DNA from: a virus
Strand: one strand, 5' to 3'
Length of the DNA: 41,679 nt
IMG/VR virus record: IMGVR_UViG_3300025137_006024
Location: 1-41,679 of that record
Positions 19,151-38,780 of this stretch are shown here, piece by piece. The translations under genes and the position numbers were made by a program. Each line of letters begins with the position of its first letter. The stretch's first letter is position 1. The notes beneath the pieces are model-generated. The model was not told where the DNA came from and ran no database searches. It saw nothing but the letters and a program-made list of their open reading frames with translations.

Positions 19151-20272
19151 ATGATTATTTTTTTAACTCAATATTATAAAGGCATAGGTCATGCTAATAG
19201 AGTTAGACTTATTGCTAAAGAAGTCGGAAAAACTCACGAAATAACAGTAGTAGATCAGTTATATAAGCCCCCAATTACTTTTGAAAATGCAGAACATATA
19301 GCTTTAATGCAGGATTTTAAGTTACCAGCCTCTGAAAATGTATTTAAATTTATTCAGCAAAAACAATTAGTTGCTTATAGAATACAAAAATGGATAGGAC
19401 TGTTAGACAAATTAAAACCAAAAGTTGTAGTTATTGAGGGATTTCCTTTTTGTAGACAACAATTTGCTTTTGAGTTTTTTCAATATATAAAGGCAGTAAA
19501 AGAACGAAATATAAAATTACTCTGTTCTATTAGAGATTTTCCGTATGATGAACCACATTCTCAATCTTTACAAGATTGGGTAGCTATTAGTCAAAACCTA
19601 GTCTTAAATAATTTTTTTGATGAAGTGCTAGTTCATGGTGATAAAAAAATATTAGCTTTATCTAGCGATACAATAAGGATAGCTAACTCACATGACCTAA
19701 TGAAAGAGATTAAAAAGAAGATTTACTACACTGGATACGTCTGTGATAAAGAGTTAAAAAAACATAAAACAAAAAATAACATTGTGTATGTAAGTTGTGG
19801 GATGAATAAAGAAGAAGTATTTTTAATATTTAGAGAAGTGATAAAAGCTGCAGAAAAGTTTCCTGATCTTCATTTTGTAATGCCTTTTGCAAATGACCAA
19901 CTAACTAGGTTAACTCCTAAAGCAAATAAGAATATAACTCTTACAAATTATATAGAAAATCTTGCAGAAAAAATTACAGAATGTAGATTATTTATTACGT
20001 ATGGAGGTTATAATTCTACAATGGAAGTATTACAAACGCAATGTCCTTCAGTGCTAATTCCTAGACAAAGCGGTAGAAAACTAGAGCAATTTATAAGATG
20101 TTATAAGTTTGAGCCTTTAAATGTGTTCAAAGTTTGTAATTCTAATGAATTAAATAAATTACATAGTATAATTGATGATGCATTGACTGAGGATAATTTT
20201 CCCGCAAAGTTTGAATATAATATGAAAGGGGCAGAAAATAGTGCAAACAGACTCATCAAGCATATCTCTTGA
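19151..20272 (+). CDS. GT-B glycosyltransferase, MurG/GT28-like
   Basis: A 373-aa protein with a two-Rossmann layout. The N-terminal half begins IIFLTQYYKGIGHANRV, with the GxGH turn of GT28-like enzymes. The C-terminal half has VYVSCGMNKEE and a late TYGGYNSTMEVLQTQCPSVLIPR segment, the donor-binding GGxxS...E...P pattern of MurG and related UDP-sugar transferases. It is soluble and lacks a signal peptide. No good ribosome binding site precedes the ATG, and an 82-nt gap separates it from the dUTPase-like gene. It is the second glycosyltransferase in the arm; the acceptor is unknown. Confidence 0.77.
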   Translation: MIIFLTQYYKGIGHANRVRLIAKEVGKTHEITVVDQLYKPPITFENAEHIALMQDFKLPASENVFKFIQQKQLVAYRIQKWIGLLDKLKPKVVVIEGFPFCRQQFAFEFFQYIKAVKERNIKLLCSIRDFPYDEPHSQSLQDWVAISQNLVLNNFFDEVLVHGDKKILALSSDTIRIANSHDLMKEIKKKIYYTGYVCDKELKKHKTKNNIVYVSCGMNKEEVFLIFREVIKAAEKFPDLHFVMPFANDQLTRLTPKANKNITLTNYIENLAEKITECRLFITYGGYNSTMEVLQTQCPSVLIPRQSGRKLEQFIRCYKFEPLNVFKVCNSNELNKLHSIIDDALTEDNFPAKFEYNMKGAENSANRLIKHIS

Positions 20273-20795
20273 ACAATTTAAAGAATTAAGAAATCGGTGG
20301 AGAGAGCAGATTGCGGCAGTTGAGATCGCCAAAATTAAAGAGTGGCAAAAAGCAAACGATTTAACTAAAGCGTATACAGATGCTAAAAGAAATCAATATA
20401 TAGTACAAACTTTAGTAGATAAAAAACTGAGATATAAGTTTTTATCTACTGAACATATTGTGCTAATAGGTTGTGGGATGTACCCTTACAGCTTATTTGA
20501 TTTACACAAACAATATCCCGACATAAAGTCTATAGGTATAGAAATAGACAATAATAGAGCATTAATAGCTAAAAAATTGATATCTTGCTCTCCTGCAAAA
20601 GATAAGATTAAAATAGTGAATGAAGATGGAATTAACTATGACTATAGTTGGTTGGGAATTGATGATTTAGTTTTTGTTAGCGTAGATGTAGAGATTGAAA
20701 AAGCAATACTAGAAAAAGTAATTATGACAAGCAAAGCATCACCGTTTCTTTGCGCGCCTTACCACTCTGCGTGGAGAAAGGCGTACCTTAGATAG
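20241..20795 (+). CDS. SAM-dependent methyltransferase-like protein
   Basis: A Rossmann SAM-binding core is visible: IVLIGCGMYPYS (motif I, residues 73-84), then SIGIEIDNN (97-105) with acidic residues to hold the ribose, then IVNEDGINYDYSW and LVFVSVDVEIEKAI. The GCGMYPYS loop recalls the nicotianamine-synthase-like group, but that is weak. I accept the GTG start at 20241, giving 184 aa and a 32-nt overlap with the glycosyltransferase. The gene ends at the converging terminator. No target-recognition domain is evident, so DNA, glycan or small-molecule methylation cannot be distinguished. Confidence 0.66.
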   Translation: MQTDSSSISLEQFKELRNRWREQIAAVEIAKIKEWQKANDLTKAYTDAKRNQYIVQTLVDKKLRYKFLSTEHIVLIGCGMYPYSLFDLHKQYPDIKSIGIEIDNNRALIAKKLISCSPAKDKIKIVNEDGINYDYSWLGIDDLVFVSVDVEIEKAILEKVIMTSKASPFLCAPYHSAWRKAYLR

Positions 20796-21443: not shown

Positions 21444-21464
21444 AGCGGGGATATACTCCCCGCT
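21444..21464 (-). terminator. Intrinsic terminator after the beta-helix gene
   Basis: AGCGGGGA (21444-21451), loop TATAC, TCCCCGCT (21457-21464): a perfect, GC-rich 8-bp stem with a 5-nt loop in an otherwise AT-rich spacer. On the - strand it is followed by C and then TTTT (21442-21439). It sits 25 nt past the stop of the 384-aa gene. The short T run suggests partial termination, which would let some transcription reach the two last genes. Confidence 0.68.
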
Positions 21465-22645: not shown

Positions 22646-22858
22646 TTATTTACCCTTCTTCTTTTTAAGAATTGCTTTTTGTAAAGCGAGAGGTAACTTT
22701 TTCTGCTGTGCAGTTAGTCCGTTCATAGATTTCCCATTACCGTTCATTCCATTCCCGTTCTTTTTCATGGCGTTACCGTTGCCATTTTTCTTTTTAGCCA
22801 AAAAAGCAGGCAAAGCCTTACCTGTTTTGGGATCTTTTTTCATAGGCATTTTTGCCAT
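22646..22858 (-). CDS. Lys/Asn/Gly-repeat small basic protein, 70 aa
   Basis: Very basic and repetitive. MPMKKDPKTGKALPAFLAKKK is followed by NGNG words separated by K and M (about residues 25-47), then a segment LTAQQKKLPLALQKAILKKKK. Small proteins of this style occur near virion genes of marine phages, from memory only. A GGAG site lies upstream (GGAGACATGATATG). Function is unknown; DNA condensation, or serving as a substrate of the neighbouring radical SAM enzyme, are speculations. The stop lies two nt before the beta-helix start. Confidence 0.72.
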   Translation of the reverse strand: MAKMPMKKDPKTGKALPAFLAKKKNGNGNAMKKNGNGMNGNGKSMNGLTAQQKKLPLALQKAILKKKKGK

Positions 22859-22869
22859 ATCATGTCTCC

Positions 22870-22898
22870 ATTCTCGTTAATAATAGCATAAAAGTCAA
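22870..22898 (-). promoter_or_regulatory. Weak promoter candidate ahead of the 70-aa and beta-helix genes
   Basis: On the - strand, TTGACT (22898-22893), a 17-nt spacer and GAGAAT (22875-22870) lie in a 44-nt gap. The -35 matches 5 of 6 positions, but the -10 lacks the first T and matches only 4 of 6. Gaps are rare in this arm, which is the main reason to list it. Confidence 0.25.
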
Positions 22899-22902
22899 AA
22901 TT

Positions 22903-23106
22903 TTATTTATTCTTTTTAGGAAGTGGTTTTCCTGTTGCTCGAAGAGCGATTGCAACTGCTTGTTTTCGTTGAGCTTCAGCTCTAGATATCCCTTGTCTCT
23001 TCGCTAGGGTAGATATCCCCTTCGATCGTGACTTCGAGGGTTTCTTCATTAATTCCTTGATGTTCTTCGATATTGTTTTCTGACTTTTGCCTTTTTTCAA
23101 TGGCAT
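22903..23106 (-). CDS. Small basic phage protein (MPLKKGxS-KTIS-KQAVAIAL type), 67 aa
   Basis: The ends, MPLKKGKSQKTISKNIKEL and KQAVAIALRATGKPLPKK, match a small protein commonly seen among marine phage structural genes (from memory; function unknown). I chose the ATG at 23106 because GGAG lies six nt upstream (GGAGAAGCTAATG) and the family begins MPLKKG; an ATG at 23118 would add four residues. Compared with the usual form, about 25 extra residues (KKPSKSRSKGISTLAKRQGI and following) separate the two conserved blocks. The first 41 codons overlap the 3' end of the 145-aa gene in another frame. Confidence 0.78.
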   Translation of the reverse strand: MPLKKGKSQKTISKNIKELMKKPSKSRSKGISTLAKRQGISRAEAQRKQAVAIALRATGKPLPKKNK

Positions 23107-23419
23107 TAGCTTCTCCATTCATTATCATTATAGCTGCTGAAGGCGGTATCATCTCTTCATTTGTAGGAGTTGAAGGAGTTGCAGACTCCATTTCTTCTTC
23201 TGAGCTTGGAGTTGGTGTTGATTCCATAGTATAAACTAAATAGTCTCTATCAGAGTTAATATAAGCAGCGGAAACAGCTAATTTATTTGTCCACCATGTA
23301 GGTAAAGATGCTTCTTCATCAGCAGGTAATGCTTTTAGTATGTCTTGACAATCTTCAATAATATTGGCACATTGTCTTTTAGCTGAAGCAACGTCTGTAT
23401 GTCCATCTTTAATCTTCAT
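22982..23419 (-). CDS. Phage protein with conserved N-terminal helical domain and acidic tail, 145 aa
   Basis: Residues 1-65 (KIKDGHTDVASAKRQC, a helix, then SLPTWWTNKLAVSAAYIN and DRDYLVY) resemble a small helical protein common in marine phage structural clusters; its function is not known to me. The rest is low complexity: a Ser/Thr/Pro/Glu-rich linker, then a Glu-rich tail ending SEETRDI. The last 125 nt are read in a different frame by the basic 67-aa gene. The ATG overlaps the upstream stop as ATGA, and AAGGA lies upstream. Confidence 0.78.
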   Translation of the reverse strand: MKIKDGHTDVASAKRQCANIIEDCQDILKALPADEEASLPTWWTNKLAVSAAYINSDRDYLVYTMESTPTPSSEEEMESATPSTPTNEEMIPPSAAIMIMNGEANAIEKRQKSENNIEEHQGINEETLEVTIEGDIYPSEETRDI

Positions 23420-23628
23420 CTTTTTTTCCTTCTCTTAAATCCGATAGGTTTTGAATACTTTATAGGGTATCCTAAATTTCTCTCAGAAATAATTAACTTT
23501 TCTAATGATCTTGATGTAAGTCTACCACTAACTGCACTTTTTCGCAAACCCTCATTTCTACGAATTTTGGGACTGGGAGGTCGCTTGAATTGGAACTTAC
23601 CTATTCTTTTATAAGTTTTAGGTTTCAT
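23416..23628 (-). CDS. Small very basic protein, 70 aa
   Basis: Unrecognised. Lys and Arg make up about a third of the sequence (starts MKPKTYKRIGKFQFKR, ends GFKRRKKR), with no acidic cluster, suggesting binding to nucleic acid or to an acidic partner. I chose the ATG at 23628, which overlaps the radical SAM stop (TAATG) and has GGGG upstream, over a GTG at 23640. It is coupled at both ends (TAATG and ATGA), so it belongs firmly to the operon of the SPASM enzyme. Confidence 0.7.
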   Translation of the reverse strand: MKPKTYKRIGKFQFKRPPSPKIRRNEGLRKSAVSGRLTSRSLEKLIISERNLGYPIKYSKPIGFKRRKKR

Positions 23629-24614
23629 TAATTTCCCCACTGGTTTGACGCGTCTACTTGCATCTTCTCACCTGTATATAAATTTTCTTCTGTTTTTTCT
23701 ATAGATGAAATAATTTTTCCACATTGACTTTTGCATAGTGAAAACGATCTTTCATAACCATTTAAGAATTTTGATAACTTATCCCAATAATTATAGCTTA
23801 TTATTTTTTCAATGGGAACTTTAAATCCATTAAATGTGTTTTCAAAATTATTTAAATAATAAAATCGTGTGTTGACTGTATCGTAATAATGCCCACCAGT
23901 CCAACAACATCTGAAAACATTACCATCAGGAGCAACATACCATTTACCCCAATCTTCCCAAACACAGTGAATTTTTCTCTCAGCCGAATCATACTTTTTT
24001 GTTTTTTTACTGTGTATATATTGACCAGTCTTAGGAGCAGCAAAATTTCTTGAAGTTTTGACTGTAGAAAAGGTTGTAAATCCTGCCTCAGTGGCAATTT
24101 TTCTTGCAGTATCTACTTGATGCTTGTTATATTCAAAAACAATATACTTCCAGTGAACCTGTGGTTTTTTAGTTGCTATAACAGCTTTAGCGTTTTCTAG
24201 CACTTTATCAAATTTAGTGTTGATTCGATAAATATGATGAGTATCTTGCAGACCATCTAAATCAAAATTAATTATATCAAATTTTGTTAACGAGTTACCT
24301 AAGTCGGTCCAATAATCTATACCGTGAATACCGCCATTAGTATGAATTAAAACCTTTGTGCCATGTAGCTTAACATATTTTAAGATAGCCCTAAAATCTT
24401 TATTCATTACAGAGTCGCCAAAATTACCATTAAAAACTAACCACTCTAGATTCTCTAATAACTTAGGATAAAAAAGTTTTTTAAAATCAGCTAACGTAAT
24501 AGTGAATTTTTTATCATTAAGATTTATCCTTAAAGGCTTAAGCCTATGGCAGGCAGGGCATTTAGCATTACATCTAAAAGTAATCTCTGTAGTAAGTTGT
24601 CTAATTTTTCTCAT
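23628..24614 (-). CDS. Radical SAM/SPASM-like enzyme
   Basis: A 328-aa radical SAM protein. The [4Fe-4S] motif CxxxCxxC is C15, C19, C22 (FRCNAKCPAC). Core strands include LEWLVFNGNFGD in place of the usual GGEP, IHTNGG, and FDLDG. The C-terminus has further cysteines C217, C236, C237, C294 and C298 in the arrangement of a SPASM/twitch auxiliary cluster domain (APDGNVFRCC is typical). SPASM enzymes modify peptides or proteins through radical chemistry. It lies between a fibre gene and a run of small basic genes and overlaps both neighbours by one base. The substrate is unknown; a virion protein or one of the small proteins is the contextual guess. Confidence 0.86.
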   Translation of the reverse strand: MRKIRQLTTEITFRCNAKCPACHRLKPLRINLNDKKFTITLADFKKLFYPKLLENLEWLVFNGNFGDSVMNKDFRAILKYVKLHGTKVLIHTNGGIHGIDYWTDLGNSLTKFDIINFDLDGLQDTHHIYRINTKFDKVLENAKAVIATKKPQVHWKYIVFEYNKHQVDTARKIATEAGFTTFSTVKTSRNFAAPKTGQYIHSKKTKKYDSAERKIHCVWEDWGKWYVAPDGNVFRCCWTGGHYYDTVNTRFYYLNNFENTFNGFKVPIEKIISYNYWDKLSKFLNGYERSFSLCKSQCGKIISSIEKTEENLYTGEKMQVDASNQWGN

Positions 24615-25912
24615 TAAGTACCAGCACTGGCAACTGTTATGTCGACGAATAGACCAGCGGGTAAAGTTTCGTCTGTAATTTGTATTGTGTCATTTGCATT
24701 GTGAAATACATAATCTGTAGTGGCTCTTTGAACAACTCCGTCAATTGCGACAGTTAGTACATTAGCTAAGGTGTGAACTTCTTTTCCTATAAAAAATACG
24801 TTAGAAGTACTAGTGGAAGTGTTTGTATTAGAAAAGAATATAAAAGCTTTTCTAGCAGCTAAAGTATTTAATTGAGTTTGTATTGCACTAGTTACACCAC
24901 TTACGTAACCAAGTTCTGTAGTTGTGACTGCAGAAGATTCTAAATTTTTACTTGCATCAGTCTGTGTAGCTCTTGAAGCTGTAAGTCCATTTACAGTTAC
25001 AGCATTTACGTCTATGCCTCCAGTAGTACCTGAAAACACTTCTGATGAATTAGTCGCATCTGGTATAAAAGTGAATTTACCTGAACTATCATCAAACCCA
25101 AAAAAACCTATTTTAGCAGCTGAACCTGTATGATACCTAAACTCAACACCTCTATCTTTGTTATCGTCTGAGCCAGGAGCTGTATCACCCCCTAAAGTAA
25201 TTATAGGGTCATCTACGGTAAGTGTCGTACTGTTTACGGTAGTAGTTGTACCATCAACTTGTAAAGCACCGCCAATGACAACATTTCCAGATACAGCCAC
25301 GTTACTATTAATATCAACAGTTGTTGTCGCAATCTGCACCTCTATATCTGCAGCAATATCGAGTTGTCCATCAGCAGACGAATTAATAAATATAGCTGAA
25401 TCTCTAAACAGTAGCTTTTTATTAGTTTCCATTGTTAGTGTGTCACTAACACTAGTAACATCAAGATTTGTGGTACCGTCTACATCCATATTGCCACTTA
25501 CATCAATACTACCTGCATCTAGCTCTCCTGTAATAGTAACGTTTCTAGCACCCGATAAATCTTTGTCTGAATCTACAACAAGGGCTTTTGATGCAGTCAC
25601 AGTTCCTGCAGTTATACCATCTAATAAAGTCAGCTCTGTAGAAGTAACATCACTAACAGCTACCTTACCTGATCCATCAGATACTAAAGCTCTACTAACA
25701 GTTAAGTTACCTGTGGTTATTGTACTTACAGCACCAGCAATATTAGCAACACGTCTGGTTTCAACCTTATCGGCTCTACCATCGTCTTCCATTTTTTCAA
25801 CAGATATTGCTCCTGCAGCTACATGTCTGTCTTGAACTGCAGCATTTGCTAGTGCGACACCTGTTATGGTATTAGCTTCAATTACACTACCTGTGATTTT
25901 GGTTAAAGCCAT
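24614..25912 (-). CDS. Tail fibre-like structural protein
   Basis: A 432-aa beta-rich, Thr/Ser/Val-rich protein with repeated fibre words: STELTLLDGITAGTV near residue 90 and TTELGYVSGVTSAIQTQ near 340, a repeat style widespread in marine phage fibres. It starts MALTKITGSVIEANTITG. The last 60 residues (AIDGVVQRATTDYVFHN... ITDETLPAGLFVDITV) form a small beta domain also seen in phage fibres. Low cysteine, no catalytic motif. It has a strong ribosome binding site. Probably trimeric and receptor-facing or decorative. Confidence 0.8.
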   Translation of the reverse strand: MALTKITGSVIEANTITGVALANAAVQDRHVAAGAISVEKMEDDGRADKVETRRVANIAGAVSTITTGNLTVSRALVSDGSGKVAVSDVTSTELTLLDGITAGTVTASKALVVDSDKDLSGARNVTITGELDAGSIDVSGNMDVDGTTNLDVTSVSDTLTMETNKKLLFRDSAIFINSSADGQLDIAADIEVQIATTTVDINSNVAVSGNVVIGGALQVDGTTTTVNSTTLTVDDPIITLGGDTAPGSDDNKDRGVEFRYHTGSAAKIGFFGFDDSSGKFTFIPDATNSSEVFSGTTGGIDVNAVTVNGLTASRATQTDASKNLESSAVTTTELGYVSGVTSAIQTQLNTLAARKAFIFFSNTNTSTSTSNVFFIGKEVHTLANVLTVAIDGVVQRATTDYVFHNANDTIQITDETLPAGLFVDITVASAGT

Positions 25913-25934: not shown

Positions 25935-26393
25935 CTATTTATTTTCTTCGTCTAATTCTTCAAAAAACTCTTCTAAGAAATCACGTTTCTCTAGTGGTTT
26001 TTCTTCTTCTTCATCAAAAAATTCTTTTATAAAAGACTCTACCTGCTCATCAACAGAAGGTGGAGCATTTAAATGGTCGTATTTACTATCAATACAAATA
26101 GCCTTGATCATTTCATCGCAAAATTTTATCTCTTCTTCAGTCAATTTCTCAACTTTTCCATCTAACCACTGCTTCTCAGTAATAGGTTGTGTTGCGACAC
26201 CTTTTTTCTCGTAATAGATTGAGATTATATCACCTTTAACAAGTTCAGCACACATAGGTTCTTCTTTGCTCATTTTAGCTAAATCAAATGATTTTGATAT
26301 CATAGGGCCTTTGCCCTCAGAAGTTATCTCTCTGTATGAAGCACTTACTATATCAGCTTGTAACTCATCTATATTAAATTTATAGTAACTCAT
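25935..26393 (-). CDS. Acidic protein between two fibre genes, 152 aa
   Basis: Unrecognised. The first 90 residues look folded (YYKFNIDELQADIVSASY; GDIISIYYEKKG), and the last 45 are strongly acidic, with repeated FFDEEEE/FFEELDEE words. Size, acidity and position between two fibre genes would fit a fibre assembly chaperone, but no family resemblance is certain. Translation begins after a perfect AGGAGG (26398-26403) that overlaps the stop of the upstream gene, suggesting abundant product. Confidence 0.72.
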   Translation of the reverse strand: MSYYKFNIDELQADIVSASYREITSEGKGPMISKSFDLAKMSKEEPMCAELVKGDIISIYYEKKGVATQPITEKQWLDGKVEKLTEEEIKFCDEMIKAICIDSKYDHLNAPPSVDEQVESFIKEFFDEEEEKPLEKRDFLEEFFEELDEENK

Positions 26394-26397
26394 AATT

Positions 26398-26403
26398 CCT
26401 CCT
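26398..26403 (-). promoter_or_regulatory. Consensus Shine-Dalgarno for the 152-aa gene
   Basis: CCTCCT on the + strand reads AGGAGG on -, four nt before the ATG at 26393 and overlapping the upstream TAG. It is the only full AGGAGG I noticed in the - arm. Confidence 0.75.
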
Positions 26404-27658
26404 AGGTTTTAATTATAAACTTTACACCTTGTGTTGGTACGGTTAACGCATGGGTATGTGATCCAACACTACCACCACCTATGACACTTATATTTCCAGT
26501 AGTATCTTTACCTCCAATAGAGGCTGTACCAGAACCTGAAACAGAAAATGAAGGTGTTGTAGCTGCAGTTGTTAAGCTACTACTACTTCCTATAGTACCA
26601 CCTGTTGGCGTATAACTTATTCCACTACTTTTACCTCCTGCAAGTCTGTCATCAAAATCAGGTAAGTTAAAAGTACTACTACCATCTCCTGCGCCAAAAC
26701 TAGTACTAGCAATTGCGAAAAGAGCTGTATAAGTAGACCTAGTTACGGCAGAACCATCACATAGTAGCCACCCATCAGGTGCTGCATCTTTACTCCACAT
26801 GATAATTGATCCTGGAGGTAATAGAGGTGCAACGTCAGTTGCAGTATTTTGAATGGTTGCTTGAGAAATAATCCTAGCTGCAACGTTTCCATAAGTTTTT
26901 CCGTCTTGTGCTAGTATATTTAAACCATCTTTACCGGCCGCAGATTTTGCAGTAGTAGTGCTACCATAGTGAACAATAGAAGTATTTGCTACGTTTATAC
27001 TACCTAAAGTAATGGCAGTAGGATTAGCAGCAATTGCTGATACCCTAATATGGGCATTTTGCCCAGCTAAACCTTTTGCAGCATCGAAAGCGAAGTTAAT
27101 TCTATCTCCAGTGATACCTGTAGTTTTTACCGTTGCAGCTCCAGCTGCAGTTATATGTTGTTGTATCATTGTATTAGATACTGACCCATTAGTAGGAGGT
27201 AGACCTACATCAATAAAGTCTGATACTGAATTTGTATTACCTGATCTTAAATATACACGAGCATTAGCAGCTAAACCGCCATCAGCACTAACAGTACTTG
27301 ATAACTCCCCTATTTCATAATGGTCAAGGTTAGCCATCATAGAAACTATCCCGTTTTCTGCTCTTAGTCCAATCCCTACTCTAGTAAAATTACCGCCTGG
27401 AGGGGCTTGCTTTTTATTCACGCTATCAGCAATATAAAGAGCTTTTACTAGTGTATTCGAAAGAAAAAATAAAGTTCCATCTTCAGGTGCTGTTGCCGCT
27501 CCAGATCTAGTTATATTACCAGATGCTTGAGAAGGAGCTACCTCACTTTTAAAATTAGTTAATAATGATCTTAAAGCATTATTAAACTGACTTCTCGAAC
27601 TACTTATCGAAGTCGCTGCGGTTGGTTCCACAAAGGTATTTGAGTCGCTTAATGCCAT
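26402..27658 (-). CDS. Tail fibre with phage tail collar domain
   Basis: A 418-aa fibre. Residues 1-270 are Ser/Thr/Ala-rich beta structure. The C-terminal part has the tail collar signature: PPGSIIMWSKDAAPDGWLLCDG, then TYTALFAIASTSFGAGDGSSTFNLPD, then the DDRLAGG segment. The end (GSHTHALTVP) contains the HxH metal-binding tip motif known from T4-type long fibres, where histidines coordinate iron; that role is inferred. It follows gpJ directly, so it is the first side or tip fibre of the cluster. Confidence 0.87.
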   Translation of the reverse strand: MALSDSNTFVEPTAATSISSSRSQFNNALRSLLTNFKSEVAPSQASGNITRSGAATAPEDGTLFFLSNTLVKALYIADSVNKKQAPPGGNFTRVGIGLRAENGIVSMMANLDHYEIGELSSTVSADGGLAANARVYLRSGNTNSVSDFIDVGLPPTNGSVSNTMIQQHITAAGAATVKTTGITGDRINFAFDAAKGLAGQNAHIRVSAIAANPTAITLGSINVANTSIVHYGSTTTAKSAAGKDGLNILAQDGKTYGNVAARIISQATIQNTATDVAPLLPPGSIIMWSKDAAPDGWLLCDGSAVTRSTYTALFAIASTSFGAGDGSSTFNLPDFDDRLAGGKSSGISYTPTGGTIGSSSSLTTAATTPSFSVSGSGTASIGGKDTTGNISVIGGGSVGSHTHALTVPTQGVKFIIKT

Positions 27659-27659
27659 A

Positions 27660-30600
27660 TTATATTCCCGTCGCTACCAAACTCACCTGAATTAAGGGCG
27701 AAGCATTAATTGGTGATAGAGTATCATTTTCTATATCAAATAGTTTATAAGCTACATGATCTGCTGTTGTTTCTACAGTAAAGGCAACTTGTGCAGTTGC
27801 TGTATTAAGTGGTTGAATACTAACGCTAGGTGTTTGTATAAACCCTGCATCAGCAAAACTTACAAATTTGATAGTATTATCAAATGTATGATTATTTGTT
27901 AATGTAGTTATATCTTTTTCTACACTAACACGAAACTTATCTAATGTAAAGTCAATTTCATTCGGTGTTTGATTTAGGACAACAAATTTTGTCTGAAAAA
28001 ATCTAAATCGTTTTGAACCAGCTTCGTACGGTATGAAACCGTCGTTGGTAGCGCTAAAGTCAAAAGCAGCCACGTTAACGTTAGCGTTGGTGTGTGCACC
28101 CTCTCCCGATACAATCTCATCTTCAGTTCTTACCTTAAATAATCCTTCTTCATCAGACGAACTAGTCCTAATAAATGTTTGCTGTGTTATGGAAGAAGTA
28201 GCTCCTGCAAAGGTAGTTCCTGTTTCATCTTGGAATTGTTTTAAGTTCACAAGTTGATAGTTGTTTACTCCATTATTCTCAGTAGCTACGTTAGCAAAAG
28301 TATTTCCTGCAGTAGATTCTCCGTTTGCATGAAAAGTAGCTCCTAAAGCTATATGATCAGCATTTATCACGCCTGCTATTAGAGCAAGAGCATTAGCATT
28401 TGAAAAGTCACCTTGATCTAATACCCCACCACTGACATAAGTAGTAAAACCACTAGAGTCAAGGGCTGATGAGCCTCCTGAATTTTGAAATATGTTTAAA
28501 GTAGTAGCATTTACACGTGTTGCAAATAACTCACGGTTATTTAGTTGTGTCATCCCTGCTACATCATGAAATATAACTCTTTTAGTTCCCTCAATTCCGT
28601 GTTCACTTCCTGAAGTTGTTACTACTGCTGGGCTAGCTTTTGTAATGGCTGAAATACTAATTACATTACCAGTAAACTGACCAGGGTTTACGATTGCGTA
28701 TACATTTTGTGTAGTGGTTGTGTCAACTAAAGTCTGATTATCTTTATTAAATGAAAAAGATAAAGCTGTATTACTAAAGCCTAAAACGGTACCAATGCCT
28801 CCAAAGTTAGTATCTTTTAAAACTTTATTATTAACAGTGGCAGCTTGTGCTTCAGTAGCTCCTGATAAGATAATTTCTTTAAAATCATTAAAAGTAGTTC
28901 TAGAAGCGCTAGTACCTTGAATATCTAGTTGAATAGAGCCTGTAATAACTTGACCCACATCTCGTATAGGACTTATATAAGTAGCATCACCCTCAGCTTG
29001 CAAGTCAGTTGCGGCTAGCCCTGCATTATAGCTCCAACCTGTTGCAGAAGCATTAGCTCTATCAGCAACAGTAGAAGAACCAGAAGCAACGTTAAGTCCA
29101 CCCGTAGTGGTGCCAGTAAGACTTACAAAGGCAGCTTCAGACGCATTTTCATTAGCTATTCCTGCAAAAACCACAGAAGGAGCATCCGTATTAAAAGCTT
29201 TAATAACGTTTTGGCCTCCAGGTCTAAAGGTGGTTAAGGTAGATAAAACAATACCGTCACTAAAGTTACCAGAAGTATCTCTAGTTCTAGCAAGATACGT
29301 AAATACACCAAAAGTATCAATTGGGCTTGATTTTCTAGATACACCCGCAGCTACAGTAACAAAAGCAGAACCTGCTGCAAAATTTTCCTCTGTAGCTGCT
29401 ACGTCTGCTCCAGGTATTCTTCTTATAATGATTTCTTTTAAATCTAAATCAAATAAACTTCCATCCTCTTGTCTCTCATAATCCCAAAACAAGGTTATCT
29501 GGTTATTAGTCTGACCTGCACCAAAGTTTAGAATATTTCTAGGTTTTGCAGTTTTACCTAAGATAGTAGCACTAGTCTGTGCTACAGATCCTTTTAAAGA
29601 CTTATTTAACGCTGTTATTCTGACTATCAAGTTAACAGAAGTAGTAGCACCTCTATCAATATTATTTATCACATGTGTTATATCACCATTTTCATCTATA
29701 TTATTAGCAGGAATTTTTACAGTAGAAAAAGTTGATAAATCTGTATTTTCTTGGTTATCTGTTCTATATGAAAGTTCGTAGTCTGTAACTTCTTGTCCAG
29801 TGACGTGCTTAAATTTTATAATCACCCTAACAGCAACACCTCCTAGTGCGTCTGTATATAGTCCTTCTGTAATTCTAATCCCTGTTACTTTTGAAATAGG
29901 CAAACTACCTATTTGAACCGATTTTGTTACAAAAGGACTTGATCTACCCGTTAAATTTTTATTTCTAGCTTTAACTGTTGTAGTGCCGATAGGAACATTT
30001 CGTAATATTCTATCTTTACCTAAAAATGTTTTTTCAAACTCACCACCTGTGGTAATAGTATATACATGACTATTCACTAATCTAAAATTACCTGGAAAAG
30101 CGCCTCTATCATAATCTATTGTAAAACTTGTATTAGAGGTAGTTACATTGTTTGTTCTACCTATTGGGTCTACTCCTATATTAACTAATGTCACCCCATT
30201 TAAATTTCTATTAGTGCCAGGAGTAGTTGCTAACTCTATTTGATAAACACTGTTTGATGTAAACTGGGCGTTAAATGTTGGACTCTCAGGATCATAACTG
30301 CTTGAAGCAACTACAAACGTATTTCCTGTACTGAATTGAACGTTATCTCCTACCTCAATTACAGGTACAGTATAATGGTCTACTTCTACTCTAATTTCGG
30401 AATCATCACTGTCTGTAGTAACGCTTAAAGTAGCAGGAGTAGAGGTGGTAGTTAAAGTAAAGTCACTCTTTTCAATATTATCAAGATATACTTTAACAAA
30501 CTTTTCGTGTCTTGGTTTAATCTGAAGAGGCTCTACATGAGCACTCCCTGGACTAGCTATCGCATTGCGTTGGGTAAAAGTAAACTCACTACCTCCAACA

Positions 30601-33600
30601 TAGAAGTTAGCTCTTGTATTAAATTGTTCACTATGAAGTTGTTGAAATATTTCTATATAAAAAGGTGCTGATGGAAGCTTGTTTAGTAGAGGCAAGGCTT
30701 CGGTAGTAGGATTTTCAATAAATATAAAGTTTCCTGTGTGATGTCTAATATTAGCAGAAATTTGGGTAGAAGTGGGTCCTGCAGCAACAAAGTTTCTATC
30801 TCCACCAGTCTGCGTTACAGCTATAGGCACACTAACAAAATCATCTCCTCTAACTGCTCTTGTGGTGTCATCATTGGTATCTAATACATGTTTAGGAACT
30901 CCACTGTTTAAGTAATTATAATCAGTTAATACACTCATTCCTTCAACTTGTAATCTTATGTTGTCAACAGCATCAGTTCCGCTTGAAGCAATACTCACTG
31001 CGTTGCACAATAGTCTAATCTTCCCGACTTGACTATCAAAACCATTTTTACCTATTAACGCTATAGGTGTTACATCATTTTCTAATTGATTAACATTTGA
31101 AGCTCGCAGTCTCAGAGGTTGTGTAGAAGAAGGACTAGATAGTATAGTGGCAGCGTGTTGAGACACATCAGGGAATGAAACAAAAAATTCAGTCTCAAAT
31201 TGAATACCGTAATCTAAGTTTTCTGTCGATATATCTAAAGCTAAATCTACTCGGATAGACCCATCTTGTTCTCTGCGAGGAGCAGGTCTAATATTAAAGG
31301 CAGGAGAAGGAGGCGCTACTAAAGGAGAACGAGTATCTAAATAAGCTGTAGGAGTGTAGTCTATGAAAGTATCAGCATCTACATATACGTTTGAAATGTA
31401 CTCTATAGCTGATATACCAACCTCTTCTTCTTTAGTGTCCCTCTCTAAGCTAGTAATTTTAAATAATTTGCCTGCTTTATTAGTGTAAATATCATCAGGG
31501 TTATCCCACTCGCCGAAACTCCATATATCCCCTTTTTGTGGTAAATTGTTAGCACCAAACTGAGTTACTGCTTGAAGGGCTTTTCTAATAGGGTCATATC
31601 TTTGATCTATTTTCACCTCAATTTGGTCTGCCCCCGTTGATGTAAGACCAGTACTTCCAACATTAAATAAATTATTACTTAGTATGTATAAATCTATTCT
31701 ATCAGAGTCTTGCTTAATAATTCTAAGTGCTAATGGGTTAGTATTTGCAGTAAAATCTAACGCAGTTATAGAAGGAGTTGTGAAGTGTTCCATAATAACA
31801 TTACTATGATTTGCTCCTGTATTACTACTAACGGCTACTTTACCTGCAAAACCAAAAGCAACCCCAATCTGTCTCTGAGCTATAGATATTACGTCGCCAG
31901 GCGCTAGTGCCATAGCATCTAATGAAGTAGTAAAATCAAGTTTTCTTCTTAAAAACTTAGAAGATGCTATTTGATATTGTGCATATCTAAGTGCTTGAGA
32001 TCTACGAGTAGTACCAAATAAATCTAAAGAAGCAATATTCTCAATAACACTTCTATCTGTTCCGTCATTTGCATCTGTTATGTCTATTCTTACGGTTTCT
32101 CGTTTATAATGATTAGTAGGATCAACATAAGATACATCTACTCCAGTAAACAGATCACTTTCTTTAGTACCTGAGATAGTTACGCTATTGTCTTTAATGT
32201 TTACCTCATTAAACATAGCCACAGGTAATTCATCTGGAACATCAACAGCCATAGTTATCTGTCCTGCTGAGTAAACTAATGCTCCTCTAATAGAGGCAGC
32301 TATTTGATTTATTACATCTAGCGCTTGCCCTTGATCTGCGATAATACCGTCAAAAGTAAATCTTCGTTGTTTTATTTTAGTGCCTTCTTCAACTCCTATT
32401 AAAGTATCTCTAACAGAGGTAAATTTTCCTTTAGGTTTATGCCTAAATGTACCATCAGCTAAACCATCTACTCCAAAGAATTTACCACTAGAATCATCGC
32501 AAGCATCGCAGTATTTTGCTACTTTAAAAAACTTAAATTTATCAATATTTTCTTCTGCTACACCTAAGCCATAAGTCTTATTTGTAAGTATATCGTATAT
32601 AATCCACACAGGATTCTGAGTCCAAGAATATACAAAACTACCATCCCAAGGACCGATATATAACACAGGATTAGCAGTTGTTAATACAGAGCCTGTTCCT
32701 GGATTTTGAAGTCTGTAACCATTGGAAACATAACCATCAGAAGTAGTTTGTGAAAGCTCAAGCTCTCTCCAATCTATTTCTCCGCTAGCTAGAATAGGTT
32801 GAATATAATTACTAGGTACTTTAACGACTAAACCTTTTACTAAAGAAGTAAAGGTAGGAACTCCAGCTTTATGCTCTCCAAAAGCTTTTAGGGCGTAACC
32901 AATATGAGCAGTCCTAGGGTATGCTTGAGGTTTATTCTCAATTTCAAACCAACCTATAGACTGAACAGTTTCTTGAATTTTAGAACTATCACTATCGTCA
33001 GACGTTTTTTCTATAGTAAATTTATATCCAGAACTACTTTGATCGCTAGCTGCAATAGGAACATCTATAGTAAATTTAAAAGCTGAGTTAGTTTTTCCTA
33101 TAATTTCTCTTTCAGTTTCAGAAATGACTGTTGTTCCAGTAGCGTCTAAAAGAGTAACTTTTACTGCTACTTTTCTTTGAAGTATATCACCATTATCTTT
33201 TGATTCTTGTAATCCGCTTATAAGAAAAGCAAACTTAATGCTATCCCAATCATTAGCAGAAGTGCTTTGTTGAAAGATTCTTGATCGCGCAACACCAGCT
33301 ACATTACCCTTTTTTAGTGTGACAGCACTACTAAAGTTTTGAGGACCAACAGTCTGCTCCCCAAATATAGGTAAAGGAGCCTGTACAGTTGTTCCAGTAT
33401 TAACTCTACTCTGAAAAACTTCACCTCTTTCTGTTCCATCTCCATCTATATTTATAAGATCATCTACGTTTCCATCATTAATTTCTATGTCTTGGGGGCC
33501 GTTAGGATTTATTCTATACATAGGCCCTTCACCAAGTGCTGCCGTAACAAATAAAATGTCAGTTGAGAATAAGTTGTTAGGATCTTCTTTACCGCTTCCT

Positions 33601-34079
33601 GATCCCCCTTTACCTCCACCTTTATTATGCACTCTTATACTATCAGCTATATAAGTTTGCGTACTTGGAACAGTAAAGTTGTAGACAGGAGCATCATCGA
33701 CTCGCTCAATTTTTAGAATATTACTTAGAGTACCACTTTCTAAAACTAGCTCGTCACCTACCTGAAATTCTTGTATTTCTTTAAATAAGTTATTACTACC
33801 AATTATCCAATGATTTGGAGTGACATATAAAATTCCGTATTGATGAGTAACTTTTAGTACAGCGTCAACTTCGTGGTAAAATACCTCAGTAACAGTTCCT
33901 GGACCAAGTTCTCCAAACTTTTTAAAGGTTAGTACAATATCAGATGGTGATATATTTTCTATAGGTTTTTTTGATCCATCTCCCATAGTAATAAGAACAC
34001 CTGCAGGAAAACAACCTTTTGAACCGTAGATGTGAGGAACTTGATATCCTTGATAGTTTACATAACGCCTATTAATCAT
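27660..34079 (-). CDS. gpJ-like tail tip/host-specificity protein with N-terminal Hint domain
   Basis: A 2139-aa central tail tip protein, about twice lambda gpJ (1132 aa). Residues 23-152 are an intein-like Hint domain. From residue 153 (KGGGKGGSGSG) the lambda J pattern begins: LFVTAALGEGPMY near 175, VKVPSNYIQP near 412, GPWDGSF...WIIYDILTN near 465-495, and APGDVISIAQR near 726. Fibronectin-like beta repeats follow (for example residues about 1510-1605), and then a long receptor-facing C-terminal region. In siphoviruses J binds the receptor and plugs the tail. It lies between the gpI-like gene (8-nt overlap) and the collar fibre. The C-terminal 500 residues are not recognised. Confidence 0.93.
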   Translation of the reverse strand: MINRRYVNYQGYQVPHIYGSKGCFPAGVLITMGDGSKKPIENISPSDIVLTFKKFGELGPGTVTEVFYHEVDAVLKVTHQYGILYVTPNHWIIGSNNLFKEIQEFQVGDELVLESGTLSNILKIERVDDAPVYNFTVPSTQTYIADSIRVHNKGGGKGGSGSGKEDPNNLFSTDILFVTAALGEGPMYRINPNGPQDIEINDGNVDDLINIDGDGTERGEVFQSRVNTGTTVQAPLPIFGEQTVGPQNFSSAVTLKKGNVAGVARSRIFQQSTSANDWDSIKFAFLISGLQESKDNGDILQRKVAVKVTLLDATGTTVISETEREIIGKTNSAFKFTIDVPIAASDQSSSGYKFTIEKTSDDSDSSKIQETVQSIGWFEIENKPQAYPRTAHIGYALKAFGEHKAGVPTFTSLVKGLVVKVPSNYIQPILASGEIDWRELELSQTTSDGYVSNGYRLQNPGTGSVLTTANPVLYIGPWDGSFVYSWTQNPVWIIYDILTNKTYGLGVAEENIDKFKFFKVAKYCDACDDSSGKFFGVDGLADGTFRHKPKGKFTSVRDTLIGVEEGTKIKQRRFTFDGIIADQGQALDVINQIAASIRGALVYSAGQITMAVDVPDELPVAMFNEVNIKDNSVTISGTKESDLFTGVDVSYVDPTNHYKRETVRIDITDANDGTDRSVIENIASLDLFGTTRRSQALRYAQYQIASSKFLRRKLDFTTSLDAMALAPGDVISIAQRQIGVAFGFAGKVAVSSNTGANHSNVIMEHFTTPSITALDFTANTNPLALRIIKQDSDRIDLYILSNNLFNVGSTGLTSTGADQIEVKIDQRYDPIRKALQAVTQFGANNLPQKGDIWSFGEWDNPDDIYTNKAGKLFKITSLERDTKEEEVGISAIEYISNVYVDADTFIDYTPTAYLDTRSPLVAPPSPAFNIRPAPRREQDGSIRVDLALDISTENLDYGIQFETEFFVSFPDVSQHAATILSSPSSTQPLRLRASNVNQLENDVTPIALIGKNGFDSQVGKIRLLCNAVSIASSGTDAVDNIRLQVEGMSVLTDYNYLNSGVPKHVLDTNDDTTRAVRGDDFVSVPIAVTQTGGDRNFVAAGPTSTQISANIRHHTGNFIFIENPTTEALPLLNKLPSAPFYIEIFQQLHSEQFNTRANFYVGGSEFTFTQRNAIASPGSAHVEPLQIKPRHEKFVKVYLDNIEKSDFTLTTTSTPATLSVTTDSDDSEIRVEVDHYTVPVIEVGDNVQFSTGNTFVVASSSYDPESPTFNAQFTSNSVYQIELATTPGTNRNLNGVTLVNIGVDPIGRTNNVTTSNTSFTIDYDRGAFPGNFRLVNSHVYTITTGGEFEKTFLGKDRILRNVPIGTTTVKARNKNLTGRSSPFVTKSVQIGSLPISKVTGIRITEGLYTDALGGVAVRVIIKFKHVTGQEVTDYELSYRTDNQENTDLSTFSTVKIPANNIDENGDITHVINNIDRGATTSVNLIVRITALNKSLKGSVAQTSATILGKTAKPRNILNFGAGQTNNQITLFWDYERQEDGSLFDLDLKEIIIRRIPGADVAATEENFAAGSAFVTVAAGVSRKSSPIDTFGVFTYLARTRDTSGNFSDGIVLSTLTTFRPGGQNVIKAFNTDAPSVVFAGIANENASEAAFVSLTGTTTGGLNVASGSSTVADRANASATGWSYNAGLAATDLQAEGDATYISPIRDVGQVITGSIQLDIQGTSASRTTFNDFKEIILSGATEAQAATVNNKVLKDTNFGGIGTVLGFSNTALSFSFNKDNQTLVDTTTTQNVYAIVNPGQFTGNVISISAITKASPAVVTTSGSEHGIEGTKRVIFHDVAGMTQLNNRELFATRVNATTLNIFQNSGGSSALDSSGFTTYVSGGVLDQGDFSNANALALIAGVINADHIALGATFHANGESTAGNTFANVATENNGVNNYQLVNLKQFQDETGTTFAGATSSITQQTFIRTSSSDEEGLFKVRTEDEIVSGEGAHTNANVNVAAFDFSATNDGFIPYEAGSKRFRFFQTKFVVLNQTPNEIDFTLDKFRVSVEKDITTLTNNHTFDNTIKFVSFADAGFIQTPSVSIQPLNTATAQVAFTVETTADHVAYKLFDIENDTLSPINASPLIQVSLVATGI
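33624..34013 (-). other. Hint (bacterial intein-like) domain inside gpJ
   Basis: Residues 23-152 of the gpJ-like protein. CFPAGVLI begins the domain with the nucleophile C23. GDGSKKPIENI and VTPNHW give block B with T87 and H90, and TYIADSIRVHN ends it with H151-N152. The residue after N152 is Lys rather than Cys, Ser or Thr, so canonical protein splicing is not expected; autocleavage at one or both ends, as in bacterial intein-like domains, is. No homing endonuclease insert is present (130 aa only). The domain breaks a Gly/Lys-rich linker (YGSKG / KGGGKGG). Confidence 0.88.
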
Positions 34080-35586: not shown

Positions 35587-35983
35587 ATAATCTCTGGCTC
35601 CAATATTTATCAATACTTGTAATCATGGAGTGGGCGCCTTCTTCAAGATGAAACATGCGCATACAATCAATATATAGTCCAAAGTGAATTGGATTTTCTC
35701 CCCTCAATGATCTAAATACTATTACATCATAATTTTGAGCGTTTGTCAATGATACTTTTTTCGCACATGTCGCTGCCCAACTATCTATGTTTTCGAGCGT
35801 AATTTGTTTCATCCAGCGTCTTGTGGATATATCTTTATTATCTTTTTTAATCTTTTCAAATAAGTCTTTAAATACCTTAATCTTTAGCTCATTTTCGTAA
35901 AAAGCTGAAATAATAGTTATACAATTAATTCCTGCATAAGAATGTCTTTGGCCTAAGTAGTTAACTAAATTTTCTGATACCAT
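35561..35983 (-). CDS. NlpC/P60-like cysteine peptidase 1
   Basis: A 140-aa divergent member of the same fold as the next gene: nucleophile C21 (YAGINCITII), H100 (NPIHFGLYID) and a third polar residue at H112 (MFHLEEG). Two adjacent copies are unusual in a lambda-like tip module; they differ enough that duplication, if any, is old. GGAG lies eight nt upstream of the ATG, which overlaps the radical SAM gene end by 19 nt. It could be a structural paralogue rather than an active enzyme, but the Cys-His pair is intact. Confidence 0.76.
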   Translation of the reverse strand: MVSENLVNYLGQRHSYAGINCITIISAFYENELKIKVFKDLFEKIKKDNKDISTRRWMKQITLENIDSWAATCAKKVSLTNAQNYDVIVFRSLRGENPIHFGLYIDCMRMFHLEEGAHSMITSIDKYWSQRLYAVYRYVV

Positions 35984-37179
35984 GAGGAGAACTCCGTAAA
36001 GGTTGACTCAAAATTTTCATTTCGATATAAGTCTAAAGCTGTATTAAATTTTTTAAATTCAGGTAGTAAGTGAGTATTATCAACTCTATTCATGTGCCTT
36101 ACACTATCTAAAATATTTTTTAACTCATAGTCTGTAAAAAACGTATACTTTTCTTTTAAGTAGCTTTTATATTCCTCATTAATTGCTGCTTTAGCTTCTT
36201 TTGGTAGAATACTAGAATCTAAAAAAACTGGACTTGTAAGATTAGTTATATGAAAAGTTAATCCCTGAGACTTAATCCAACTGATTAGTTTAAGGTTTGT
36301 AGAAATGCTATAAGCACTACCACACACACTAAAAGTCTCTATTCTCTCTTTAAATAGCTTTACGTTTTCAGCAAAAACATCCCAATCTAGTCCTTTTCTA
36401 CTATATTCCGCTCTATCACCATAACCGTCTATACTAGGCCAAACCTTAACGTTCTTAAAGTGGCTCCACATGCTCTTAATGTTATACTTTTTATGTGTTC
36501 TATAGGAAAGATTTGTATTATATTGTAATTCAACGTCGGTTTTACCCTTTTCAATTAAAAAATCTAACATCTTATAATGACCGTCTTGTACAAAAGGCTC
36601 TCCACCAGCAAAATAAATAGTATCAATATTATGACAAATTTTTTCCATATCATCCCAAAATTCACTATTATATGTCCAATGGTCTTGACCTGGTTTTGCT
36701 GAATATGAGTGGTGGGCTGCTAAATGTTTCTCTTTAAACCAGGAAGTTGATGCATCTGGTCCACACATTCGACATTTAAAATTACACAAGTTTCCAAATC
36801 TAAAATCTAAGTAAACTGGAGGAGAGTTTAAACTTCCATCTAAGCTTGTTTTGTCCTGTAGCATCTGATAACGTTTATATTTATGATTTACTCTTTGCCT
36901 ATGACTAGTTTGTCCTTCTGTTTCTATATCATAACAAACACTACACTCAGGAGGGTATTGTCCTTTTAAAAACATTTTTCTAGTTTTTTTATATTTTTCA
37001 GAGTTCCATACATCGAGAGGTCTTTGTCCTGGCTCACCAAACGCAGTTGCAGCGCTTTCGTAGTTTTCAGAGTGACAACACACAGCGTAAGTGCCATCTA
37101 ACCTACCATAGACATGTATCCATGGAAGTATGCAACCTTTAATTTCTTGCTTTCCAAATAATGAATTAATCTTTTTCAT
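35965..37179 (-). CDS. Twitch-domain radical SAM enzyme in the tail tip operon
   Basis: A 404-aa radical SAM protein with an inverted arrangement: an N-terminal SPASM/twitch-like cysteine set (C16, C34, C35, C79, C82, with LDGTYAVCC and PPECSVCYDIE) precedes the core. The [4Fe-4S] motif is C132, C136, C139 (GNLCNFKCRMC), followed by YFAGGEPF and WPSIDGYG. This type is known in bacteria and marine phages, but the reaction is not established. It lies between the gpL-like protein and the peptidases, overlapping both, so it is produced with tail tip parts. Modification of a tail protein is inferred; a role in host metabolism is possible. Confidence 0.9.
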   Translation of the reverse strand: MKKINSLFGKQEIKGCILPWIHVYGRLDGTYAVCCHSENYESAATAFGEPGQRPLDVWNSEKYKKTRKMFLKGQYPPECSVCYDIETEGQTSHRQRVNHKYKRYQMLQDKTSLDGSLNSPPVYLDFRFGNLCNFKCRMCGPDASTSWFKEKHLAAHHSYSAKPGQDHWTYNSEFWDDMEKICHNIDTIYFAGGEPFVQDGHYKMLDFLIEKGKTDVELQYNTNLSYRTHKKYNIKSMWSHFKNVKVWPSIDGYGDRAEYSRKGLDWDVFAENVKLFKERIETFSVCGSAYSISTNLKLISWIKSQGLTFHITNLTSPVFLDSSILPKEAKAAINEEYKSYLKEKYTFFTDYELKNILDSVRHMNRVDNTHLLPEFKKFNTALDLYRNENFESTFTEFSSWYQKI

Positions 37180-38780
37180 TGTTTTGGAACGGTTCTACCT
37201 GTCGCTGGAAAAGCACCAAAGTGTATTTGATTGTTTCTAAGTTGGCAAGACTGTATTGATTTACCGCATACGTCTAAGTCAAAGTTCGGCTCGCCACCAC
37301 CTCCGGTAGCGTCTTCGTTAGCAGCTGTAATAGCTTTGGTATTTGCAGATAATACAGGATTAGAAGTACCTGGGATATTACCCCCATTTGGTCCTGGATA
37401 TTGACACTCAGCACCCTTATAAACCCATTGGCATGTATTTTTATAGTATTTTCTTTTTGGAATTTGTAGTTTAAAGTACTGTAACCAAGAAATTAAACCA
37501 AAAGTTGCAACATTAAGATCTAATTTTTCTAAATTATCAATTTTAAATACATCTTCAACATAAGCTTCCGCATCAGCTTCAGGATTTACTATAAAGATAT
37601 TGTCACCAATAGTGGTATTTGCGTCTAAAGTGTTTGATAAGAATAAAAATTTATTCTCTTCTATGGCTGTAATAGTGGCTTCAGTAGTACCAAACTGACT
37701 AATAACATTATCTCCTACTCTATAGGGTAATGCTGATAGCACTTCTACAACATTTGAAGATAAGTACCTAGCACTACTATACTCAGGCCAGTAGTCTAAA
37801 AAATTAGCGAAAGTGGTTTTAATTTCTACAACACCACCTAGTAGATCTCTTGTATCTTGTTTTTGTTCTTGCCAGACACCATCAACTGCAAGAGTCTGAG
37901 TGTAAGTAAAAGATGCGTTAGAGACTCCATATGCTGCTACTACGTCTGCACTATACGTTAGACCGTTTGCTCTTGCTCTAGTTAACGTATCAAAAGCTAC
38001 ACTACCCTCACTACCCACATCAGCAGGATTAAAATTTACAGTTCTAGGATCTATGCCGTGCACAAATTCGTCGTTTACTAAGGCAATAACAGAGTTAGAC
38101 GAATTATTGCCCGCTAAAAATGGATTTTCAACAAAAGTACTTATAATATTATCAAAGTTTGAAATACTAAGAGATACTTCATTAATTTTTCCATCACTAC
38201 TAGTCTCAATACCAGTAAGCTCAACAGGAAAAGGTATATATTCAAAGTTATCATATTTCACTCTGTATACTGAATCACTTTGTAAGTCTCCAACAACCTC
38301 AGCAAACCTAAAAGGAACGTCAACAGGCCAAGATTGCCCAGCTCCTTGTCCTGTAGGATTACCGTTTGGGTTAGACGGGTACCACTCACCTGGATAATAG
38401 ATAGAATATAGCCTGACTACAGGGTTCTGCGTAAAAGCATTTTTTTCTGCTATAAAAGGGGAATTTGCTATTGAACTTATAGTAGTAGTAGCAACGGTTG
38501 TATTACCTGAAAAAACGTTAGATTGGAAAGGAGTAGATGAACTATTAACAGCACCATTAGCACTAGTCGAAACGGTTATAACATCGTTTTTAATAGTTTC
38601 AGTGGTTCTAAACTCTCTCTGTACGTTATCAACTTTTACTTTAATTTGTTTTGCTACTAAATCCACATTTGCAATAGTAGCAGTTGTATCTGATGTTACT
38701 CCATATATAGTGTTACCAGTAACAAAACCTGCAGCACTTGCAACAGTTAGTATAAAATCATAGGTTCTTGCAGTAGGCAT
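37176..38780 (-). CDS. gpL-like minor tail protein with four-cysteine C-terminus
   Basis: A 534-aa protein. The C-terminal part matches lambda gpL closely: NTCQWVYKGAECQYPGP then DVCGKSIQSCQLRNN, followed by FGAFP. The cysteines C450, C459, C505 and C512 correspond to those reported to bind an iron-sulfur cluster in lambda gpL. The middle (YDNFEYIPFPVELTGIE; VSLSISNFDNIISTFV) fits the gpL fold, and about 130 extra N-terminal residues form a beta-rich domain. It lies between the gpM-like gene and the radical SAM enzyme, with overlaps of 1 and 4 nt. Confidence 0.9.
   Translation of the reverse strand: MPTARTYDFILTVASAAGFVTGNTIYGVTSDTTATIANVDLVAKQIKVKVDNVQREFRTTETIKNDVITVSTSANGAVNSSSTPFQSNVFSGNTTVATTTISSIANSPFIAEKNAFTQNPVVRLYSIYYPGEWYPSNPNGNPTGQGAGQSWPVDVPFRFAEVVGDLQSDSVYRVKYDNFEYIPFPVELTGIETSSDGKINEVSLSISNFDNIISTFVENPFLAGNNSSNSVIALVNDEFVHGIDPRTVNFNPADVGSEGSVAFDTLTRARANGLTYSADVVAAYGVSNASFTYTQTLAVDGVWQEQKQDTRDLLGGVVEIKTTFANFLDYWPEYSSARYLSSNVVEVLSALPYRVGDNVISQFGTTEATITAIEENKFLFLSNTLDANTTIGDNIFIVNPEADAEAYVEDVFKIDNLEKLDLNVATFGLISWLQYFKLQIPKRKYYKNTCQWVYKGAECQYPGPNGGNIPGTSNPVLSANTKAITAANEDATGGGGEPNFDLDVCGKSIQSCQLRNNQIHFGAFPATGRTVPKQ

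Follow-up and report, generated by a model that had tools for sequence, protein, structure and literature searches.

What does a radical-SAM enzyme act on when its gene lies in a virion operon? In the window (the whole stretch of 41,679 nt analysed here, from IMG/VR virus record IMGVR_UViG_3300025137_006024), a radical-SAM ORF of 328 aa (rSAM1) is followed by ORFs of 70, 145, 67 and 70 aa. The initial annotation had taken this set for a SPASM-type maturase with its candidate substrates, linked by one- to four-base overlaps. The ORF coordinates confirmed all five at their places and sizes, and the small ORFs are real genes with same-order homologues in dozens of independent marine contigs. The tight overlaps held for rSAM1 and the 70-aa ORF (1 nt, TAATG) and for the 70-aa and 145-aa ORFs (4 nt), but not for the remaining junctions: the 145-aa and 67-aa ORFs share 125 nt, read in different frames, and the NGNG gene follows after a gap of 44 nt. 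In most relatives the former overlap is only about 7 nt, the closest relatives having a similar long one, indicating that the C-terminal part of the 145-aa ORF of the window is the other frame of the 67-aa gene (window 22982-23106).

The enzyme gene lies in the 3' half of a minus-strand late operon, whose tail genes follow the lambda-like order. The genes that the enzyme is really tied to, for a fibre and for a small companion (u25935), stand just upstream of it, outside the interval of the initial annotation. The features are as follows.

40369-41613, minus strand, tape-measure-like protein (lambda-like tail order)
37176-38780, minus strand, M-like minor tail protein (lambda-like tail order)
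35965..37179, minus strand, second radical-SAM enzyme, rSAM2 (NCBIfam N_Twi_rSAM NF033640, 373 bits, cut-off 170)
Between the M-like and J-like genes, minus strand, L-like genes, a JAB-domain K-like protein and an I-like gene (lambda-like tail order)
27660-34079, minus strand, J-like tail tip protein (lambda-like tail order)
26402..27658, minus strand, tail collar fibre gene, which bounds the cassette on the left (Pfam Collar 3.9e-21)
25935..26393, minus strand, u25935, 152-aa cassette protein
24614..25912, minus strand, fib24614, tail-fibre/virion structural protein (phrog_697 structural protein, 6.8e-47)
23628..24614, minus strand, rSAM1, 328-aa radical-SAM protein with a half-SPASM/twitch-like C-terminus (CxxxCxxC, phrog_21308, Foldseek)
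23416..23628, minus strand, KR23416, 70-aa K/R-rich protein (34% K+R), a backbone gene with C-terminal GYPIKYSKPIGFKR (60 viral-contig relatives)
22982..23419, minus strand, acid22982, 145-aa acidic protein (DGHTDVAS...LPTWWTNKLA; 348 viral-contig relatives, many in phages without rSAM1)
22903..23106, minus strand, KR22903, 67-aa basic protein (31% K+R; small phage family phrog_2423, 8e-10)
22646..22858, minus strand, NG22646, 70-aa K/N/G-rich protein (homologues in few rSAM1-positive clusters)
20241..20795, plus strand, SAM-dependent transferase/methyltransferase-like protein adjoining the glycosyltransferase (weak NCBIfam CntL match, 2.7e-6, and methyltransferase matches; a GTG-start ORF, searched with the residues from 20286)
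19151..20272, plus strand, GT28-type glycosyltransferase, convergent with the tail operon (Pfam Glyco_tran_28_C 2.8e-9)

Two further observations concern the operon itself. Near the N-terminus of the J-like protein (residues about 22-155) there is a HINT-like insertion (Pfam PT-HINT 8.8e-4, CFPAGVLITMGDG...VHNKG), which may be an intein or a domain for self-processing. Furthermore, an 8-bp GC-rich palindrome (AGCGGGGATATACTCCCCGCT; window 21444-21464) that is terminator-like lies between rh21489 and s21067.

A three-gene tail-fibre cassette

Scans with rSAM1, KR23416, acid22982 and u25935 gave at least 264 loci, which fell into 63 clusters by shared 150-mers. The interval from the collar gene to acid22982 was readable in 39 dereplicated clusters, on which our counts rest; the relatives compared were uncultured marine contigs only, with distant relatives partly covered. 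In a phage isolate database, the KR23416 and KR22903 consensus sequences and u25935 had no match and acid22982 only chance-level ones, so the whole comparison rests on metagenomic contigs. Of the 39 readable clusters, 34 had u25935, the fibre and rSAM1 together and 5 had none of the three, with 0 exceptions; this perfect correlation is phylogenetically thin, since the clusters without the enzyme represent two lineages only, and Fisher P values overstate it. All 33 rSAM1-positive clusters with enough upstream DNA had both u25935 and the fibre, and the three clusters with u25935 and no rSAM1 all ended inside the fibre. The stop of the fibre gene and the start of rSAM1 overlapped by 1 nt in 73 of the 86 distinct junctions. 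When the collected loci were searched by HMM for the C-terminal domain of the fibre, every occurrence lay either immediately ahead of rSAM1 or at the end of a contig. rSAM1 thus belongs to a three-gene tail-fibre cassette, placed between the collar-fibre gene and the small backbone virion genes.

The companion u25935 is a novel family with a strict link to the fibre and rSAM1. Its homologues (152-203 aa) have a beta-rich, drifting N-terminal domain and acidic C-terminal helices with a conserved repeated DF[IL]xEFF, present in three copies in 62 of 120 distinct proteins, in two copies in 53 and in one in 5. No Pfam match at 0.1 and no PHROG better than 0.0035 was obtained, and its AF2 model (pLDDT 87), in which the repeats are plain helices, had no fold match in PDB or BFVD at E<=0.001. 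A peptide-recognition (winged-helix) domain in u25935 was considered and rejected for want of fold support.

The cassette is accompanied by genes elsewhere in the window. The GT28-type and transferase genes were found in 22 of 23 rSAM1-positive records (the remaining one stops 148 nt past rSAM1) and in none of 19 rSAM1-less records; a control core gene was detected at 69% identity in four of the latter, indicating that the absence is not due to divergence. rSAM2 lies between the M-like and L-like minor tail genes, its start within a 4-nt overlap with the preceding gene; 28 records among the 50 searched had it, and each of these was rSAM1-positive. Most rSAM1-positive records without rSAM2 were too short upstream, and the group of L155/L162 seems truly to be without it. 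One locus, L136, was rejected as an rSAM1-less case, as its rSAM1 lies further upstream. In addition to this rSAM1, L136 has two more radical-SAM genes, along with an NAD-dependent epimerase, in the slot before acid22982 (L136:2803-5533), a cargo expansion of sugar or modification type.

The enzyme and its candidate targets

rSAM1 is a member of the radical SAM superfamily by its CxxxCxxC motif and TIM-barrel fold matches (BlsE, SuiB, MoaA). It matched phrog_21308 at 1.1e-27 and Pfam Radical_SAM at 8.4e-5, the latter under the gathering (curated) score, and the Foldseek matches of its model were BlsE (8.7e-7), SuiB (3e-5), SkfB (1.4e-4) and MoaA (2.1e-4). No cellular relatives were found in GTDB contigs, and neither rSAM1 nor u25935 had convincing sequence relatives in PDB. 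Across 30 aligned relatives, CxxxCxxC (C15-x3-C19-x2-C22) was invariant and the C-terminal cysteines were kept (C217-x13-G231-x4-C236, C237, C294-x3-C298). The full SPASM signature has seven cysteines (CX9-15GX4C-gap-CX2CX5CX3C-gap-C) for two clusters. rSAM1 has five C-terminal cysteines (C-x13-G-x4-C, one adjacent Cys and C-x3-C) and scored far under the cut-off of the curated SPASM families. The label 'SPASM-type' should therefore be narrowed to half of the signature with a twitch-like tail. A twitch domain is a shortened SPASM with about four cluster cysteines and one auxiliary cluster; the cysteine pattern of rSAM1 fits this type, and its C-terminal model is poor. These cysteines and fold matches neither prove nor exclude a protein substrate. 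The enzyme is probably active.

How would such an enzyme serve the fibre? We consider it somewhat short of an even chance that rSAM1 matures the host-binding tail fibre by a radical-based modification, with the GT28-type enzyme and the transferase in the same pathway. The fibre as substrate, and the chemistry, are what we infer. The fibre and rSAM1 would be made together by translational coupling; rSAM1 would form a 5'-deoxyadenosyl radical from SAM and may use its auxiliary Fe-S cluster on a fibre residue or an attached sugar, a modification that would be needed for the mature host-binding fibre. The GT28-type glycosyltransferase, the SAM-dependent transferase and often rSAM2 would act in the same pathway, and u25935 may be an adaptor, chaperone or co-substrate. 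We hold more tentatively that rSAM1 modifies the phage's own tail-fibre polypeptide (or the repeated DFLxEFF tail of u25935) during virion assembly, together with the glycosyltransferase and often the second radical-SAM enzyme. The conservation of rSAM1 (mean column identity of 79% in 30 sequences, active-site and auxiliary cysteines included) and the peptide maturases SuiB and SkfB among its fold neighbours argue for modification of the fibre. Against it, the fibre is very variable while the enzyme is very conserved, neither a peptide-recognition domain nor a leader peptide was found, and the AF2 model has a good barrel but a C-terminal third of low quality (pLDDT 29-55 at about residues 190-250). 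On the sequence, fibre protein, fibre glycan and u25935 are all candidate targets.

The first competitor is that rSAM1 acts on a sugar or small molecule (a nucleotide sugar or an attached glycan), whose product the GT28-type enzyme and the transferase place on the fibre or the host surface. The two genes always accompany rSAM1, the best Foldseek match, BlsE, acts on a nucleoside sugar, and the homologue in Pelagibacter phage Mosig is close to tail-fibre genes, with aminotransferase, carbamoyltransferase and methyltransferase genes around it; the extra radical-SAM and epimerase genes of L136 point the same way. However, the rSAM1 cassette has no sugar-nucleotide enzyme, whereas many known sugar-acting radical-SAM enzymes sit in sugar operons, and rSAM1 overlaps the fibre gene and not the GT28-type gene, which is on the other strand. 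We regard a sugar substrate as rather unlikely.

It is improbable, in our opinion, that u25935 itself is the substrate, with rSAM1 crosslinking or modifying its two or three DF[IL]xEFFxEL copies in the style of a multi-core precursor and the product serving in tail assembly or host entry. u25935 is never separated from rSAM1, its repeats are conserved while the N-terminal domain drifts, and the motif was present in 217 u25935 ORFs against 8 others (of 8084 ORFs). However, neither a recognition element nor a leader, protease or exporter was seen, and the plain helices of the model could equally be docking motifs. u25935 always accompanies the enzyme and yet is not a typical RiPP precursor.

A metabolic or DNA-hypermodification enzyme that came into the tail operon by chance is very improbable. 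A metabolic annotation is common among phage radical-SAM genes, and the window also has an FAD oxidoreductase gene:

1325-2533, plus strand, DAO-type FAD oxidoreductase (4.5e-62), between the primase and DNA polymerase A genes

Against this reading stand the fixed position and stop/start overlap of rSAM1 in the tail operon, and no hydroxymethylase or hypermodification kinase family was found among the scanned window genes. A link to DNA hypermodification via the FAD oxidoreductase was not supported either, this gene being limited to the two closest relatives (84% identity) among 20 records tested.

The small downstream genes

That the small basic and acidic proteins downstream are the substrates, as initially proposed, was the least probable reading of all, and we rejected it on their distribution and on a nested loss. 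They share the operon with rSAM1, KR23416 has its 1-nt overlap with rSAM1 in the window, and the C-terminal motif of KR23416 is strongly conserved. However, across marine contigs KR23416 and NG22646 varied among phages that keep the enzyme. KR23416 was found in 23 of 34 rSAM1-positive clusters (missing in 11) and in 5/5 without rSAM1, KR22903 in 26 of 27 and 5/5, and NG22646 homologues in 2 of 26 (missing in 24) and 4/5, respectively. KR22903 has its own PHROG family, and acid22982 often occurs in phages that have no rSAM1. A RiPP locus has a dedicated precursor that always accompanies its enzyme; these small proteins are present without rSAM1 and absent with it, and no recognition element, exporter or protease was found nearby among the Pfam, PHROG and NCBIfam matches of the scanned genes. 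In many relatives, the acid22982 family also shows a tandem duplication (two copies in L045) and an inserted TRHFDICPSAQ domain of roughly 100 aa (L003, L022).

In the relatives without rSAM1 (L102, L114/L160, L159/L166, L169 and L183/L184/L185), a collar-type fibre gene is followed by KR23416, acid22982 and KR22903 in unchanged order, with KR23416 directly after the fibre gene. The C-terminal motif of KR23416, PIKYSKPIGF, was unchanged in L102, L166, L169 and L114 and was SVKYSKPIGF in L183. Small genes in the same order, with the motif kept or nearly kept, in five clusters (two lineages) without the enzyme are the very observation that the initial annotation had named as speaking against its proposal. 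Profile searches found no rSAM1 in the complete records of this group, including those of 107, 71 and 174 kb.

A tree of the small genes, with its root on the other rSAM1-less phages, placed L102 inside the rSAM1-positive clade, and a downstream-gene tree put it beside L050 (0.96). It keeps KR23416-acid-KR22903-rh-s21067-s20861 and is without the cassette, the GT28-type gene and the transferase, indicating a loss of the cassette with the small genes retained. As the remaining rSAM1-less clusters make up the outgroup, the independent lineages without rSAM1 number two and not five. Apart from L102, the co-occurrence is confounded by common descent; the L102 contig is short (only 6.6 kb), and its early genes between s20861 and the exonuclease differ beyond the GT28-type and transferase genes (no dUTPase match, a ThyX-like ORF), so the loss may have been one recombination. 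The ThyX-like ORF (RHRSFSFQEFSQRY; L102:4071-4553, minus strand) lies where rSAM1-positive relatives have the dUTPase, glycosyltransferase and transferase genes.

rSAM1 was never apart from the fibre gene and its small companion, while the small basic genes persist without the enzyme, which makes finishing of the fibre likelier than modification of the small proteins. A phage protein-modification system in a virion operon, the broader idea of the initial annotation, is therefore still the leading one, without the small proteins as substrates of a maturase. This locus also cautions that a maturase followed by small ORFs in a phage operon should not be read as a RiPP locus.

Comparison with known systems

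Radical-SAM genes of marine phages have been reported repeatedly and filed as auxiliary metabolism. A fixed unit of fibre, u25935 and radical-SAM genes that is inherited along with genes for a glycosyltransferase and a SAM-dependent transferase suggests a testable role in the making of the host-recognition fibre and names candidate substrates. If rSAM1 does modify the fibre or u25935, radical chemistry would be used in building a receptor-binding protein. In the literature searched, we found no paper on phage radical-SAM action on virion proteins and no description of three genes forming a fixed unit in which those for the fibre and the enzyme overlap.

Among characterized enzymes, the best structural match was the cytosylglucuronate decarboxylase BlsE (8.7e-7, TM 0.44). 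However, rSAM1 has 22% identity to it in the core only, and the window has no blasticidin-type pathway. With the SPASM/twitch peptide maturases SuiB and SkfB, both Foldseek matches, it shares the radical-SAM core and extra conserved C-terminal cysteines, but it is without a precursor-peptide operon or recognition domain, has half the SPASM cysteine set and has no family score over cut-off. rSAM2 is a member of N_Twi_rSAM (NF033640), whereas in rSAM1 the auxiliary cysteines are C-terminal, and that model gave no match to it at E 0.01. Campylobacter phage CP220 likewise has several radical-SAM genes in one phage, described as an exchangeable, probably non-essential metabolic module (PMC2853527); the identity to its proteins is about 24%.

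The nearest parallels are the pelagimyophages and Pelagibacter phage Mosig, which likewise are marine phages with radical-SAM genes beside tail fibres in a host-recognition region; a Mosig protein was the best isolate match of rSAM1 (29.5% identity over 57% of the query). Radical SAM cassettes are reported to differ between pelagimyophage host-recognition clusters that hold tail fibres (PMC7029224), and the association is therefore not new in kind. However, in those phages the genes vary, as island cargo in the company of sugar and metabolic genes, whereas here there is a fixed, very conserved three-gene cassette in a lambda-like tail operon, in which the enzyme gene overlaps one fibre gene.
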